Shown: piece by piece, positions 40,662-51,057 of the stretch
Numbering within the stretch: the stretch's first letter is position 1
Layout of the letters: each line of letters begins with the position of its first letter
From: Capillimicrobium parvum
GTDB taxonomy: Bacteria; Actinomycetota; Thermoleophilia; Solirubrobacterales; Solirubrobacteraceae
Length of the DNA stretch: 64,000 nucleotides
Direction: 5' to 3'
Assembly (NCBI RefSeq): GCF_021172045.1
Contig: NZ_CP087164.1
Location: 1,860,001-1,924,000, forward strand
Position numbers and translations under genes: made by a program
Notes under the pieces: generated by a model
Seen by the model: the letters and a program-made list of their open reading frames with translations, nothing else
Told to the model about the DNA's origin: nothing
Databases searched by the model: none

Positions 40662-40735
40662 CGGGGAGTGGCGCAGTCTGGTAGCGCACCCGGCTGGGGG
40701 CCGGGCGGTCGCAGGTTCAAATCCTGTCTCCCCGA
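40662..40735 (+). tRNA. tRNA-Pro (anticodon GGG), integration target
   Basis: A 74-nt tRNA. The acceptor CGGGGAG pairs with CTCCCCG; the discriminator is A. The anticodon stem CCCGG/CCGGG holds loop CTGGGGG, giving GGG. The T-arm is GCAGGTTCAAATCCTGT. Its last 13 nt and the following bases recur 8.1 kb downstream, which marks this tRNA as the attachment site of the element that follows. Confidence 0.95.
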
Positions 40736-40742
40736 TGAAAGA
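40723..40742 (+). repeat. Left attachment-site repeat (3' end of tRNA-Pro)
   Basis: CCTGTCTCCCCGATGAAAGA covers the 3' end of tRNA-Pro and 7 nt beyond. It recurs at 48866-48885 with one change (G to C at the 15th base) in the same orientation. This is the hallmark of site-specific integration into a tRNA gene. Confidence 0.88.
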
Positions 40743-44143: not shown

Positions 44144-44360
44144 GGAGTTCGAGGCTCAGACGGCCGCGCTACGTGACCTTCTCCGCGTCGCCGCTGCGCC
44201 GGCACGCGTCTGCGACGAGGAAACGTACGTGGAGCTGGTCCGCGCCGCCCGACGACTGGAGTCGTCGAACAGGCAGCTCGGGACATCGGCCTCGCGTAGC
44301 GTCACCGTCCTGCACCGCCGCGGCGGCGCCCGCGCGGGGAGCCGCGCTCGTCGCCCATGA
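44043..44360 (+). CDS. Small helical ORF, 105 aa
   Basis: An open frame from TTG 44043 whose central part (EEFEAQTAALRDLLRVAAAP...DEETYVELVRAARRLESSNRQLG) has a good codon pattern and looks like two amphipathic helices. The ends are low complexity. It overlaps the 54-aa ORF in another frame and the 3' end of the divergent XRE gene by 59 bp. No family is recognised. The start is uncertain and the true gene may begin later. Confidence 0.35.
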   Translation: MSPLLRRASRPSTTSAAASSGGAASRDADSPPPEEFEAQTAALRDLLRVAAAPARVCDEETYVELVRAARRLESSNRQLGTSASRSVTVLHRRGGARAGSRARRP

Positions 44361-44601
44361 CGGCGGAGAACCGGTCGCTGCCCTCGGCGCCGGGTTCAGG
44401 CTTCGGGTCGGCGTCGAGCCTGAGAACTAGGCCGAGCGCATCGAGCAGAGCGGCGAGCTGGGCGACCGTCACCGGCTTTTTGCCGGTCTCCCACGCGGAG
44501 ACCTGCGGCTGGTGCGAACCCACGCGCCGCGCGAGTTCACCCTGCGAGACGCCCTGGCGCTTGCGCATCCGTCGCAGGAAGTCGCCGGCGTCCGAGGTCA
44601 T
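44302..44601 (-). CDS. XRE-family repressor of the element
   Basis: A 99-aa protein with one helix-turn-helix of the XRE/Cro type: FLRRMRKRQGVSQGELARRVGSHQPQVSAWETG in outline, residues about 8-45. A short helical region and a basic tail (RGRRRGGAGR) follow. I chose ATG 44601 (MTSDAGDF) over an upstream start because the TATACC box and the 44615-44632 palindrome lie just before it. It is divergent from the excisionase-like gene. Arrangement and operators indicate a phage-type control switch that keeps the element integrated. Confidence 0.8.
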   Translation of the reverse strand: MTSDAGDFLRRMRKRQGVSQGELARRVGSHQPQVSAWETGKKPVTVAQLAALLDALGLVLRLDADPKPEPGAEGSDRFSAVMGDERGSPRGRRRGGAGR

Positions 44602-44614
44602 CGCGCCGGACGGT

Positions 44615-44632
44615 ATAGGCGAGCGCATCTAT
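44615..44632. promoter_or_regulatory. Operator 1 of the repressor/excisionase switch
   Basis: ATAGGCGAGCGCATCTAT, an imperfect palindrome that overlaps the TATACC box of the XRE gene on the minus strand. It resembles operator 2 (ATA-GCG-A-CGCAT-TAT design). Confidence 0.5.
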
Positions 44633-44696: not shown

Positions 44697-44954
44697 GTGA
44701 CGTCTTGTCCGGTCGAGACGGATTTCGCCCCGACCGTGGCGGCATGGGCATCGTCAATCGCCTTCCCACGCCGCTCCGACTGGGAGCCCGAGCTGAGCAA
44801 GCGTCAGCTTGCCGACCGGCTCGGCTACTCGACCCGTTGGGTCGAGCTGCGGGTGCGCGAAGGCATGCCCACGTCATCCATCAAGGGCAACCAGCGCCGG
44901 TTCCTCCTCTCGGAAGTCGAGACGTGGCTGGCGCAGAGGAGGAAGAGCGCGTGA
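44697..44954 (+). CDS. xis: Excisionase-like HTH protein
   Basis: An 85-aa protein with a C-terminal winged-helix of the MerR/excisionase (HTH_17) type: ELSKRQLADRLGYSTRWVELRVREGMPTSSIKGNQRRFLLSEVETWL, in outline. The first 30 residues are unrelated. It starts at GTG 44697 and its stop overlaps the integrase start (GTGA), the usual xis-int coupling in actinobacterial elements. It would bend attachment-site DNA and direct excision. Confidence 0.8.
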   Translation: MTSCPVETDFAPTVAAWASSIAFPRRSDWEPELSKRQLADRLGYSTRWVELRVREGMPTSSIKGNQRRFLLSEVETWLAQRRKSA

Positions 44955-45980
44955 TTCTCAAGCGTGGCGACCGCTACGGCGTTCGCATCTACCGGGCAGG
45001 CAAGCAGGAGTGGGTTGGCACCTTCCGGACGCGGAAGGAGGCCAAGGAGGCCGAGCGTGAGGCGCTCCAGCGGGCGCGGCCGACGCGCGACGAGACCGTC
45101 GCGCACTTCGTCGAACGCTGGAAGGCGCAGTACGCGCGGCCGCGAGCCTCGACGAACCGCCACAACGCCTACATGGTGAAGCCGTTCGTCGCCTCGTTCG
45201 GCGGCGTCCGCATGGGGGACATCACGCGCCGGCAGGCGCGCGAGTGGGCGCTGCAGCATCGCGCCAGCGTCCCGGTCGTGCGAGCTCTCTTCAACGACGG
45301 GCTCGACGAGGAGGTCGTCACGTCGAACCCGTTCGCGAACCTCCGGCTCGACCAGCGCCGAGGCCGGCGGGACCTCACCGGCGCTGACCCGGGCGGAGCT
45401 GGACCGGCTCGCCGATGCGGCGCTCGCCACGCTCGGCGACTACGGTCCGACGTTCCGTGCGTGCATCCTCTTCGCGGCGTACGTCGGCCTCCGTCCGGCG
45501 GAGCTGTTCATGCTGCGCTGGACCGACGTGGACTTCGGTCGGCACGAGGTCCGCATCCGTCAGTCGCTCGGCTCGACCGGGGACGTGACGCTGCCCAAGA
45601 ACGGCCAGGCGCGCACGGTGACGCAGCCGCCTCCGGCACGGGACGCGCTGGTGGAGATGCCGCGCCGCGCCGACAGCCCGTACGTCTTCACGACGCGCAC
45701 CGGCAAGCGGTTCTCCAAGACGTCGCATTACTACTACTGGCACGCGGTCCGCTCGTCCTGCGGCCGGCCGGGCATGGACTTCTACGAGCTGCGTCACTTC
45801 TGCGCGACGGAGCTGCTTCGGCTCGGCGTGAGTCACGCCGATGTGGCCGTGCAGCTCGGGCACACGGATGGCGGGGCGCTTGTCATGAGCACGTACGGCC
45901 ACCCCTCTGAGGACGAAGCCCGGGAGCGGCTGCGGCGCGCTTACGCGCCCGATGTTCGCCGGCTTCGGGCGGCGGAGTAG
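44951..45980 (+). pseudogene. int: Tyrosine recombinase (integrase), split by a one-base frameshift
   Basis: Frame one runs from GTG 44951 (MILKRGDRYGVRIYRAGK, arm-binding domain, then SAM-like core-binding domain to NPFANLRLDQ). Near 45380 an extra G in ACC-GGCG shifts the frame. Removing it restores RDLTALTRAELDRL and continues through AYVGLRPAELFMLRW (catalytic Arg), LPKNGQARTV (Lys), FYELRHFCATELL (Arg and His) and LGHTDGGALVMSTYGHP (nucleophile Tyr) to 45980. The repaired protein would be about 342 aa, normal for the family. It is either inactive, a sequencing error, or made by ribosomal frameshifting. Confidence 0.82.
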
Positions 45981-46017: not shown

Positions 46018-47742
46018 ATGATGGAGCCGCTTTTCACGCTCGACGAGCCGCAGGCTCCGGCCGTCGGTCGCCACTCGTCTCAGAAGGCGAACGGCATCCA
46101 CTACACGCCAACGGAGCTTGCCGCGTTCGTTGCGCGCCGGGCGCTGTCGGAGCTCGACGGGGGAGAGCTGGTCGTGCTCGACCCGGCGTGCGGCGACGGA
46201 GAGCTCCTCCTTGCCCTGGCCGTCGAGGCTGCTGCCCTCGGCCTTCCTCGACCTCATCTCGTCGGAGTGGACACGGACGCGGAGGCCATCCGTGTTGCCG
46301 CGGACCGACTTGGCGATGCGCCCGCTGCGAGCGTTGTTCTGCGCACGGGCGACTTCCTGGCGATGGGAAGTGACGAAGCGGGGGAGCTTCCCGACTCGTA
46401 CGACCTTGTCATCTCCAACCCGCCGTACGTGAGGACTCAAGTCTTGGGCGCCGCGCGGGCCCAAGCGCTTGGCAAGCAGTTCGGCCTGACGGGGCGCGTG
46501 GACCTCTATCACGCCTTCGTCGCAGGCATGACCGCGAAGCTGTCTGAGGGTGGAGTTCTCGGGCTGCTGTGCTCGAACCGCTTCGTAACGACTAAGGGCG
46601 GTCAGTCGCTGCGGGCCCTGCTGCTTCGTCACTACGACATCGGGGAGCTATGGGACCTCGGGGACACGAAGCTGTTCGAGGCTGCCGTGCTGCCGGCGGT
46701 CGTCGTCGCCAGGCGGACGGCTATGCCGTCATCCAGAACAGGGTCGTTCGTACGCGTGTACGAGGACGAGGCGGCCAACGGTGAGGTGACCGCCGAAGAC
46801 TCCCTGCTGGCGGCGCTGGAGAGTGACGCCGAAGGACTTGTAGAGGTGGCTGGCCGCCAATTCGAGGTCGAGCGCGGCGAACTCGTGGAGCCGTCTTCGG
46901 AGCGACCGTGGCGGCTCACGTCGGCGCGCGGCGCTCGATGGATGGAAGTAGTCCAGAAGCGTTCCGCCGGCCGGTTCGGGGACCTCGGGCCGATACGCGT
47001 TGGCATCAAGACGACTGCCGACAGCGTGTTCATCAAGGCGACGTGGGACGACCTTCCCGCAGACATTCGTCCGGAAAGCGAGCTCGTGCACCCACTGCTC
47101 ACGCATCGCCTCGCGGCTCGATGGCGCGCAGAGGAAAGCGCGAAGGGCGCGCGTTTCGTCCTGTACCCGCACGAGATGAGGAACGGCCGTAAGCAGGCCG
47201 TGGACCTCGCGCGCTTCCCGCGCGCAGCGAGGTACTTGGAGCTTCATCGCGAGCGGCTCGAAGGCCGCGAGTACGTGCGCAAGGCGGGTCGCTCTTGGTA
47301 CGAGATTTGGGTGCCGCAGCAGCCGGACGCGTGGGCGCATCCGAAGCTCGTGTGGCCGGACATCTCTGACCGACCGAAGTTCTTCCTCGATGAGAGCGGC
47401 GCCATCGTGAACGGTGACTGCTACTGGCTGTCCTGCAAGGGGCTGGCGGAGGACGAGGCTGCTCTCGCGCTCGCCGTTGCCAATTCCTCCTTCGCGCTTC
47501 GGTACTACGACCTCTGTTGCGGCAACCGCCTGTACGCGGGCCGGCGGCGGTTCATCACGCAGTACCTGGAAGAGTTGCCTGTGCCGGAGGCGCCTTCTGC
47601 TGCGCTGCGCGAAGTCGCGGACATGGTGTCGCAGCTACGGGACCCGGCCAGTCAGGACCCGGAGACACGCAGCGCGACTGAAGCGTCGCTTGACGCCGTG
47701 GTGTCGGAGCTGTTCGGCCTAAGAGAAGAAGTTGCTAGGTAG
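46018..47742 (+). CDS. N6-adenine DNA methyltransferase (gamma class) of a restriction-modification system
   Basis: A 574-aa amino-methyltransferase. The SAM site (motif I) is VVLDPACGDGELLLA near residue 57 and the catalytic motif IV is LVISNPPYVRTQ near residue 137. The order I then IV and a long C-terminal target-recognition region give the M.TaqI-like gamma class; HYTPTELA at the start is typical. The C-terminal half (residues about 300-560) should set the recognised DNA site, which is unknown. A TAACGT box lies 9 nt before ATG 46018. Its 3' end overlaps the convergent nuclease gene by 24 bp. It would protect host DNA from that nuclease. Confidence 0.88.
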   Translation: MMEPLFTLDEPQAPAVGRHSSQKANGIHYTPTELAAFVARRALSELDGGELVVLDPACGDGELLLALAVEAAALGLPRPHLVGVDTDAEAIRVAADRLGDAPAASVVLRTGDFLAMGSDEAGELPDSYDLVISNPPYVRTQVLGAARAQALGKQFGLTGRVDLYHAFVAGMTAKLSEGGVLGLLCSNRFVTTKGGQSLRALLLRHYDIGELWDLGDTKLFEAAVLPAVVVARRTAMPSSRTGSFVRVYEDEAANGEVTAEDSLLAALESDAEGLVEVAGRQFEVERGELVEPSSERPWRLTSARGARWMEVVQKRSAGRFGDLGPIRVGIKTTADSVFIKATWDDLPADIRPESELVHPLLTHRLAARWRAEESAKGARFVLYPHEMRNGRKQAVDLARFPRAARYLELHRERLEGREYVRKAGRSWYEIWVPQQPDAWAHPKLVWPDISDRPKFFLDESGAIVNGDCYWLSCKGLAEDEAALALAVANSSFALRYYDLCCGNRLYAGRRRFITQYLEELPVPEAPSAALREVADMVSQLRDPASQDPETRSATEASLDAVVSELFGLREEVAR

Positions 47743-48756
47743 CCGGAGCTGGAGCTTGCGGTTCTGTACCAGCCCGCCGAACCGCTGGAACTCCCCGAAG
47801 AAGTCGATGCCTGTGGACAAGACGATGTGCTCGATATGGACCACTTCGGTGTCGTGAGCCCCGTATGCCACGAGATACCGGGCGTCGGAGTGACGAAGGC
47901 GAGGCGAGAGCGTGACGGCTGGTCCGTCGCTATCGGGCGAAACAAGACCGAGGTCGATAGTCGGCGACGTCTGGAGCTTCACCTCAAGCGCTTGGCAAAC
48001 GATGTCTGGGAACTTGCCGGTGTCGGCGTAGCTCCCCAACCCGAGCGCCTCACAAGCGAGGCGGTGAAGACGCTCGCCGCGCAGCCGCTCGCTCGTCGAG
48101 TACTCCATCTCGCGTCCGACTAGACCGAGCAAGCGGTCGTAAAGCGCCCGGACGCTCAGCACCTTTCCGTGGACGGGAGGGTCGACCGGCCGCAAGCCGC
48201 GCAGTGTCCTCTCGTCGAGGTGGTCGGTAGGCGCCAATTCGGCGATGAAATCGGGCGTGTCCGTGTCGAACACGAGCTTGCTGCCTGAGTTGGCGTTCCG
48301 TCGCTTTGCCTGATACTTGCTCGTTAGCGTGCCGGTTCGGTCGAACATCGCGAGTTCCGTACCCTCGGCGACGCGAACCGCGATGACATCGCCGACATCA
48401 TCAACCCGGATGACGGCGTAGCGCCGGGTGGGACTCAACTCCTCGTTCCAGACCTGAAGGTTGTCGTGCTGCTGCACGTACACGTCAAGGTCCTGGCCAG
48501 GGAACCGCGGCTTGACACGCCTGAACGAGGCGGGCACGGGATAGCCGAGAGCACGACACACGGCTTCCTTGGCGAGCTTTGACCGTGTGCGGATAGGGCC
48601 GGCGAACACAGAACCAGCGAGCTCGTGACGGAGTAGCTCCTCAAGCTCCTGATGGGTGTAGACGGCCTCGGGATGCTCTGTCAGTGGTTCGTAGATGTCG
48701 AACCCGAGTTCGGAGATGGCTTCGCGGATGGCGAGGGCGTCATCAAGGATGGACAC
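47719..48756 (-). CDS. Type II restriction endonuclease-like protein (PD-ExK)
   Basis: A 345-aa protein partnered with the methyltransferase. A PD-(D/E)xK nuclease core is visible near residues 250-270: KFPDIVCQALEVKLQTSP, i.e. P-D, then E-V-K after 8 residues. The N-terminal 150 residues (LDVYVQQHDNLQVWNEE, RYAVIRVDDVGDVIAVRV) probably form the DNA-recognition part. The start is GTG 48756. It converges with and overlaps the methyltransferase gene by 24 bp, so their expression is likely separately timed. It does not obviously match XhoI/PaeR7I or BsuBI/PstI types. The cleavage site is unknown. Confidence 0.8.
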   Translation of the reverse strand: MSILDDALAIREAISELGFDIYEPLTEHPEAVYTHQELEELLRHELAGSVFAGPIRTRSKLAKEAVCRALGYPVPASFRRVKPRFPGQDLDVYVQQHDNLQVWNEELSPTRRYAVIRVDDVGDVIAVRVAEGTELAMFDRTGTLTSKYQAKRRNANSGSKLVFDTDTPDFIAELAPTDHLDERTLRGLRPVDPPVHGKVLSVRALYDRLLGLVGREMEYSTSERLRGERLHRLACEALGLGSYADTGKFPDIVCQALEVKLQTSPTIDLGLVSPDSDGPAVTLSPRLRHSDARYLVAYGAHDTEVVHIEHIVLSTGIDFFGEFQRFGGLVQNRKLQLRLPSNFFS

Positions 48757-48865: not shown

Positions 48866-48885
48866 CCTGTCTCCCCGATCAAAGA
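48866..48885 (+). repeat. Right attachment-site repeat
   Basis: CCTGTCTCCCCGATCAAAGA, matching the left site in 19 of 20 positions. A 7-bp inverted repeat, GCGAAAC (48824-48830) and GTTTCGC (48848-48854), lies just inside it and may be a protein-binding arm. Confidence 0.88.
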
Positions 48886-48909: not shown

Positions 48910-49274
48910 TGCTCTCCGGGTACGAATCCCGGGTACCAATCGCGTGCCTCGGGCGATAGCACGGCCGCCGCTCGTGATCTGGGAGGTTGGGCGCTGGCCC
49001 CTACTCGTCAACGGCGCGAGTCTCTTGCCTGAAGCTGCGGCGGGCGCTCGAACCCCGGGACTTCTGCATGGCAAGAAAGGGGCGGCGGGACCCGTGAGCG
49101 AAGGAAACGCCTGCAAAGGTGGCCGGTTTCGTTATGTCGGATTTCCATGCGCGGCCGCTGAATTTTGGCACTTTTCGGGCTCAAAGGGGAGGGTTTTGGC
49201 ACGGTTCTGGCACCCGACATGCGATCTCGCTGTGCGGCTCGCGTGCAGCGCATCGAGAAACCTTGGGTCAAACT
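48910..49274. other. Region without a supported gene, right of the element
   Basis: About 365 bp. No coding frame is convincing. It contains three near copies of a TTnTGGCAC motif (near 49164, 49196 and 49206), which could be binding sites for the gene that follows. Confidence 0.45.
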
Positions 49275-49700: not shown

Positions 49701-50414
49701 ATGAGCGCGGTGGCCGAGGTAGCTGAGCAGATGACCGTCCTGCGGCACAAGGCCGAGCAGGTCGAGGAGCTGGTCAGCCCGCCGCGCTCGGTCCGCGAGC
49801 GCCGCCCCGAGACCGCGGCCGAGGAGTCGCTGGCGCAGCGGCGCTGGGGCTGGTACCAGGGCCTGGAGGACGCGGTGCTGGACCTCTCTAACTCGCTGCC
49901 CGAGGGCACCGAGGACTACGACGCCCGCAAGCTGTTCGAGTTCCTCATCGAGCTGCGGCGGGCCATCACAGCCGACCCCGAAGCCAGCGATGAGCGCGGC
50001 GAGGTCGAGCTCGCGACCATCAAGATGCGCGACGTCGTGCACCGCATCGGCCGGCGGCTGGAGCACAACATCCTCGACGACCCGCAGTCGGCCGCGCGCT
50101 CGGTCTTCACCACCTTGAGGAGCGTCGGGGTCGGCGACCTGTCCCGGCTGCTGGGCGTGTCGACGAAGACCATCAACACGTGGAAGGCGGGCGGGCCGGT
50201 CACGCGCAAGGCCGACCGGGTGGTGGTGCTGGCGCAGCTGCTGACGTACCTGCGGTCGTCGATGACGCCGACGGGCCTGGTGATGTGGTTCGACGCGCCG
50301 CGCCATCAGCTCGGAGGGCGAACGCCGCTCCAGCTCTTGGACGAGAACGAGGCGGCCGCGCGCGAGACGCTGGTAGCTCTCGCGCGGGGTGCCCGTGGCC
50401 AGCTGGCAGGCTGA
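49701..50414 (+). CDS. Xre/MbcA/ParS-like antitoxin of a RES-Xre pair
   Basis: A 237-aa antitoxin, longer than the usual 110-160 aa. The first 140 residues are helical and charged. Residues about 140-165 form a helix-turn-helix (GVGDLSRLLGVSTKTINTWKAG), and the C-terminal part (LTPTGLVMWFDAPRHQLGGRTPLQLL in outline) matches the toxin-binding segment of the family. AGGAGAG precedes ATG 49701. It overlaps the RES toxin gene by 26 bp. It should neutralise the toxin and repress its own promoter. Confidence 0.82.
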   Translation: MSAVAEVAEQMTVLRHKAEQVEELVSPPRSVRERRPETAAEESLAQRRWGWYQGLEDAVLDLSNSLPEGTEDYDARKLFEFLIELRRAITADPEASDERGEVELATIKMRDVVHRIGRRLEHNILDDPQSAARSVFTTLRSVGVGDLSRLLGVSTKTINTWKAGGPVTRKADRVVVLAQLLTYLRSSMTPTGLVMWFDAPRHQLGGRTPLQLLDENEAAARETLVALARGARGQLAG

Positions 50415-51057
50415 ACCCGCACGCGTCAGCGACGAGTGGGTCTGCTACCGCCAGGTCTCACCGGAGTGGGCGCCGCTGTATCACGCCGCCGGCGAGCCGG
50501 TGCCGTCGCAGTCCGACGCGCGCTGGCACCGCCAAGGCGAGGGCTACGCGCAGTACATGGCGCTGGAGCCGCTCGGCGCGTGGGCGGAGCTCGTGCGCTA
50601 CGAGGGCATCCGCGGCAACGCGCGCGCCGATGAGTACCGGCGCCGGCTGTGGGTGATGTTCGTGCGCGAGCACGACATCGCCGACCTTTCGACGTTCGAG
50701 GCCTACGACGCCTGCGGACTCGACCCGCGCATCGCCGTCGGCAAGCACACCGAGTCGCAGAAGCTGGCCGATGACCTGCGCGCGGCCGGGTTTCGCGGCG
50801 TGCTGTCGCCCTCGGCGGCGCTGGTCGGCGCGACCAACCTCACTCTGTTCGGCGCGCGCTACGAAAAGCTCCTGCTCGGCGGCCTGGCCACATGGCCCAA
50901 CCCCCAGCCGGGACTGCGTCTGCCCTGCAGCCTCGTCGTCGAGGGCAATCCGCCCGACCAGCTCATCACCGAAACGGTGTTCGAGGACATCGAACACGAC
51001 GGCTATCGCGACTGGCTGAGAGCCAACGGCAAGCCGCTTCCCGCGGACCCGCCGTAG
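50389..51057 (+). CDS. RES-domain toxin (NAD+-degrading type)
   Basis: A 222-aa RES-family toxin. Characterised RES toxins deplete or phosphorolyse NAD+. Visible family features: an N-terminal Tyr-Arg start (WVCYRQVSPEWAPLYHAAGEP), then ARWHRQGEGYAQYMALEPLGAWAELVRYE (in outline), carrying conserved Arg, Tyr and Glu, and later SPSAALVGATNLTLFG with the conserved Ser/Asn. The start is GTG 50389 inside the antitoxin gene, so expression is coupled. The gene looks intact, which predicts a working module. Confidence 0.82.
   Translation: MPVASWQAEPARVSDEWVCYRQVSPEWAPLYHAAGEPVPSQSDARWHRQGEGYAQYMALEPLGAWAELVRYEGIRGNARADEYRRRLWVMFVREHDIADLSTFEAYDACGLDPRIAVGKHTESQKLADDLRAAGFRGVLSPSAALVGATNLTLFGARYEKLLLGGLATWPNPQPGLRLPCSLVVEGNPPDQLITETVFEDIEHDGYRDWLRANGKPLPADPP

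Follow-up and report, generated by a model that had tools for sequence, protein, structure and literature searches.

M.BseCI (PDB 7qw5-7qw8), from a Bacillus relative, is a methylase that recognises ATCGAT. The ClaI system targets AT^CGAT; at 41.6 kDa, the ClaI subunit stands out among type IIP enzymes for its large size (PMC4081073). S. oneidensis MR-1 was reported to methylate GATC and ATCGAT, with a type II system lowering plasmid transformation (PMC12838424); the ATCGAT motif is reported there for the strain, without assignment to the M gene compared below, and the title of a work cited in it (Rachkevych 2014) indicates that ClaI site removal improves MR-1 transformation. Convergent and overlapping restriction-modification (R-M) genes are already known elsewhere. 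C-controlled systems of the AhdI/Esp1396I/Csp231I type have convergent CR and M units (PMC5333194), and R-M systems of Psychrobacter pP62BP1 (CCNGG) are reported to have tail-to-tail genes with overlapping stop codons and weak reverse promoters (PMC10779009).

The window, which is the whole 64,000-nucleotide stretch of Capillimicrobium parvum DNA analysed here, carries a methyltransferase gene (M) and a nuclease gene (R) that most probably (roughly 85%) form a complete ClaI/BseCI-type IIP R-M system for ATCGAT. An earlier note had regarded the pair as a plausible new type II system of unknown specificity. Its type II character stands on homology, conserved catalytic residues and fold; its novelty and its unknown specificity were not supported, and M.BseCI homology and a pair in S. 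oneidensis predict ATCGAT.

The two genes and their predicted target

The M gene (46018-47742, plus strand, ATG start) encodes a 574-aa M.BseCI homologue. Its DPACGDGE motif is followed by NPPY and then, at the C-terminus, by a specificity domain like that of TaqI (Pfam Eco57I, 3.5e-16; TaqI_C, 1.6e-06), an order that fits the gamma class of N6-adenine methyltransferases, in line with the gamma-class adenine methyltransferase of the earlier note. Residues 20-550 matched M.BseCI (PDB 7qw5) with E=1.2e-135 in phmmer, and the protein matched the PADLOC type II methyltransferase model PDLC03226 with E=1.4e-187. Identity to M.BseCI, 42.8% overall, was higher in the catalytic part (47.3%) than in the specificity part (40.5%), and the two proteins were collinear over their full length.

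The R gene (47719-48756, minus strand, GTG start) encodes a 345-aa type II restriction endonuclease, which matched the PADLOC model REase_II PDLC03565 over nearly its whole length (E=3e-89). Its core is P249-D250...E257-V-K259 (numbered without the start residue), and P249, D250, Q254, E257 and K259 were invariant in 47 aligned sequences, in agreement with the nuclease and PD...EVK core of the earlier note. Pfam and NCBIfam searches with R gave no match. Roundabout, which had appeared as a PDB sequence match of R, was rejected as a set of chance matches, and a profile search of PDB then gave none. The AF2 model of R had a pLDDT of 93.5. Foldseek searches with the models of R or of its N-terminal half gave no significant match (best E about 0.05). 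The top ranks for R in VIA were EcoRV (Z 7.3, rmsd 3.4, 117 aligned), NhoI (7.0) and HincII (6.8), with NaeI, MutH and PvuII further down the list; EcoRV, HincII, NhoI and MutH spanned Z 5.5-7.3, and values below 8 are of middling strength. Although the Z scores are only moderate, this list is dominated by restriction enzymes, and along with the conserved catalytic residues it supports the assignment of R as a PD-(D/E)XK nuclease, with the conserved D...E-x-K placed on the modelled core fold.

R appears to consist of two tandem PD-(D/E)XK-type domains, with a degenerate first copy, a proposed architecture that is new at the family level. The putative C-terminal catalytic domain (47722-48171, minus strand, approximately residues 195-344) was delimited from conserved residues and VIA, and the PD-(D/E)XK-like N-terminal domain (48172-48654, minus strand, approximately residues 34-194) contains D90, Q94 and Q100-x-W102. 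The profiles of the two halves could be aligned to each other with hhalign (31 columns; score 36.6, whereas none of 60 column shuffles exceeded 21.4). A separate model of the N-terminal half (pLDDT 84) had VIA matches that were almost all PD-(D/E)XK proteins, including HincII (6.8), Rai1/DXO (6.5), NlaIV (6.3), EcoRV, MutH and NhoI. D90...Q100-x-W102 apparently sits where D250...E257-x-K259 sits in the C-terminal domain, so the N-terminal domain is probably a dead copy, and we infer a role for it in DNA recognition or in assembly. The family has neither a Pfam entry nor a solved structure, and its tandem-domain model is a second testable point, besides regulation.

Among plasmid-borne pairs, the closest were those of the S. 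oneidensis MR-1 megaplasmid and of plasmids from Thioclava and Acinetobacter. The MR-1 pair (SO_RS22150/SO_RS22155) consists of convergent M and R homologues like those of the window (R 45-46%, M 41% identity), and the MR-1 M is in turn homologous to M.BseCI (E=7e-124); the strain is the one reported to methylate ATCGAT. This pair and the homology to M.BseCI make ATCGAT the best prediction, by analogy, for the window pair. M would thus methylate an adenine of ATCGAT in host DNA (by analogy ATCGm6AT), and R would cut incoming DNA at unmethylated ATCGAT. Taken together, the window locus appears to be an ordinary bacterial defence system for ATCGAT, with a specificity that can be predicted without experiment, and its specialist interest lies in the conserved overlap and the tandem-domain nuclease.

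ATCGAT sites were absent from the window (0 versus about 9 expected). The observed/expected ratio was 0.41 in the host and 0.33 and 0.45 in two relatives without the R family; avoidance was therefore rejected as a signature of the pair, and the scarcity of ATCGAT in the host lends the pair no support. ATCGAT, TCGCGA, AGCGCT and AACGTT all fell below Markov expectation in the host (window 1-64000 plus sampled genome). The two relatives showed similar depletion of the first three, and one of these relatives also of AACGTT; the depletion is thus common to the clade and has nothing to do with the R-M pair. A Caulobacter paper on ATNNAT (PMC11945714) turned out to be unrelated.

Genomic setting

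The M/R pair is probably the cargo of a small element integrated at tRNA-Pro(GGG), whose mobility we infer from its features. A 20-nt direct repeat (D10, 95%) joins the 3' end of this tRNA gene (40662-40735) with a site beyond R, giving a probable attL (40723-40742, plus strand) and a probable attR (48866-48885, plus strand) just past the 5' end of R. Upstream of M are an HTH_17 excisionase-like protein (44697-44954, plus strand; Pfam 3e-4, under the curated cut-off) and a tyrosine integrase (44951-45980, plus strand; Phage_integrase 1.8e-11 on its downstream part). A shift near 45390 splits the integrase between two frames, which makes it either a pseudogene or the product of an assembly indel. 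A search of the genus for an empty site found none, and the flanks were not conserved there. As the earlier note had stated, the pair is less GC-rich than the host (0.64-0.67 per kb versus 0.725 in 864 kb of sampled host genome).

Several other features lie in or near this region. An XRE-family regulator (44302-44628, minus strand) lies ahead of the integrase, is weakly similar to the C proteins of the family (8e-08) and is perhaps the repressor of the element. Downstream of the probable attR, a tRNA T-arm-like sequence, CCGGGTACGAATCCCGG (48910-48937), follows a hairpin and is possibly what is left of a tRNA. A weakly matching Xre-like antitoxin gene, located immediately beyond the probable attR, overlaps a gene for a RES-domain toxin (PF08808, 1.9e-10), and the two (49701-51057) are a probable RES-Xre toxin-antitoxin pair.

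Junction layout and alternative readings

The M and R genes are both intact. As the earlier note had described, they converge and share 24 bp, which here are 47719-47742. The overlap is codon-aligned: the M stop TAG is the complement of the CTA codon of R Leu338, and the R stop TAG is the complement of a CTA Leu codon of M. Nothing resembling a terminator was found there.

An alignment-based scan found 183 relatives in genome contigs, the best 80 of which were kept, and 11 in viral contigs; a single-protein scan of the genome contigs had found none, and phage records gave no match. The surveyed loci were taken from a single best-80 list obtained with R, and their related sequences are not independent. 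In this set (genome-contig loci being the best 80 of 183, here and in all counts of this section), M and R were neighbours in nearly all relatives, and they converged in 93 of the 95 loci with both genes; the two divergent loci belonged to Bacilli, and in one of them the M match was weak and may be another gene. Full-length homology and the retention of the pair in unrelated genomes exclude a chance pairing. Among the convergent loci, 81 overlapped and 12 did not, with overlap lengths that included 27 nt (35 loci), 21 nt (18 loci) and 24 nt (9 loci). The exact codon register of the window was shared by 70 of the 81 overlapping loci. Within these 70, the M stop complemented a Leu codon of R (CTA/TTA) in 50, usually just before a conserved Pro, and the Ser codon TCA in 20, mostly in LPS. 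This tail-to-tail overlapping layout is conserved across many bacterial phyla and is new at the family level, and in the best-80 set one register persisted through some eleven phyla, with proteins about 45% identical.

The R tail LPxxFF was present both with and without overlap. On the other hand, a charged M end (EE, EK or KE), which is the antisense of the FF codons of R, was found in 61 of the 68 loci with matched register, in 2 of the 11 that overlap otherwise and in none of the 14 without overlap. The R tail is therefore under protein-level constraint, and the last residues of M mostly mirror it. The tree requires at least 15 changes of the overlap state.

The controller (C) gene was also considered. 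An HTH gene lay immediately upstream of R in 60 of 96 loci; no C gene was found upstream of the window R, nor among the upstream ORFs of R in the window clade. This clade of 11 mainly actinobacterial members (99% SH-aLRT in a quick tree) has its own long branch, and such a C-less clade is new at the family level. The overlap was kept in 9 of its 11 members, L027 and L089 being the exceptions. The closest R relative among the best 80 (L017, 68%), on a contig labelled Alphaproteobacteria, grouped with actinobacterial sequences in the tree, which suggests mis-binning or recent transfer; an integrase-like ORF lies upstream of its R.

Without a C gene in the clade, the R/M balance must come from other sources; in the ClaI/BseCI-type reading the strengths of the promoters would set it, perhaps helped by the convergent overlapping layout. 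The earlier note had suggested that antisense interference could limit the nuclease. In this reading the overlap would itself be a conserved regulator: M transcripts would run antisense into R and hold it down, or the reverse, in place of the C protein in this clade. The conserved convergent overlap with its common register, the lack of a terminator-like site at the junction and the lack of a C gene make this idea plausible, and overlapping stops and weak reverse promoters are reported for tail-to-tail genes of a CCNGG system (PMC10779009). However, the 12 convergent relatives without overlap include the C-less L027 and L089, C-containing loci overlap equally often, and the codon register can be explained by common descent. 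Antisense control is thus possible but doubtful. It concerns regulation only and is compatible with a ClaI/BseCI-type system, and the natural overlap-free and C-free variants of the best-80 set make regulation by a convergent R-M layout directly testable. The joint proposal that the codon-locked overlap is an antisense control replacing C in the clade, and that R is a one-chain PD-(D/E)XK pair whose dead first copy reads DNA, is unlikely.

It is still less likely that the window holds a type II pair which belongs to this family but has come to recognise another sequence, such as a degenerate or related 6-mer. Identity to M.BseCI of just 40.5% in the specificity half makes a changed motif possible, and the separate long branch of the window clade points the same way; against this, the two methylases are collinear over their full length, the specificity half being free of large insertions or swaps, and throughout the family conservation of R goes hand in hand with that of M. 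Equally improbable is a decaying or silent pair with M active as a solitary methylase and R inactive: the adjoining integrase is frameshifted, the C gene of most relatives is absent and a Limosilactobacillus reuteri plasmid has M without R, but the window R is full length with all invariant family residues, and since the entire clade lacks C, the missing gene is no sign of decay here. The M homologue of that plasmid (L007, 3983-5656) is a solitary methylase near two PemK/MazF-type toxin genes. The ClaI/BseCI-type reading is therefore retained, and the system of the window is probably functional.

Comparison with known systems

M.BseCI is the end-to-end homologue of the window M, with catalytic and specificity domains collinear in both; the two are 43% identical. 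The ClaI system shares the predicted target of the window pair, and its 41.6 kDa subunit is comparable with the 345-aa R of the window. In the MR-1 pair, a C-like HTH gene precedes R and 4 bp separate the two genes, whereas the window R has no such neighbour and the window genes overlap. Systems of the AhdI/Esp1396I/Csp231I type are convergent like the window pair but possess a C gene, which is not found next to the window R. The R-M systems of pP62BP1 resemble the window pair in layout, but their target is CCNGG.
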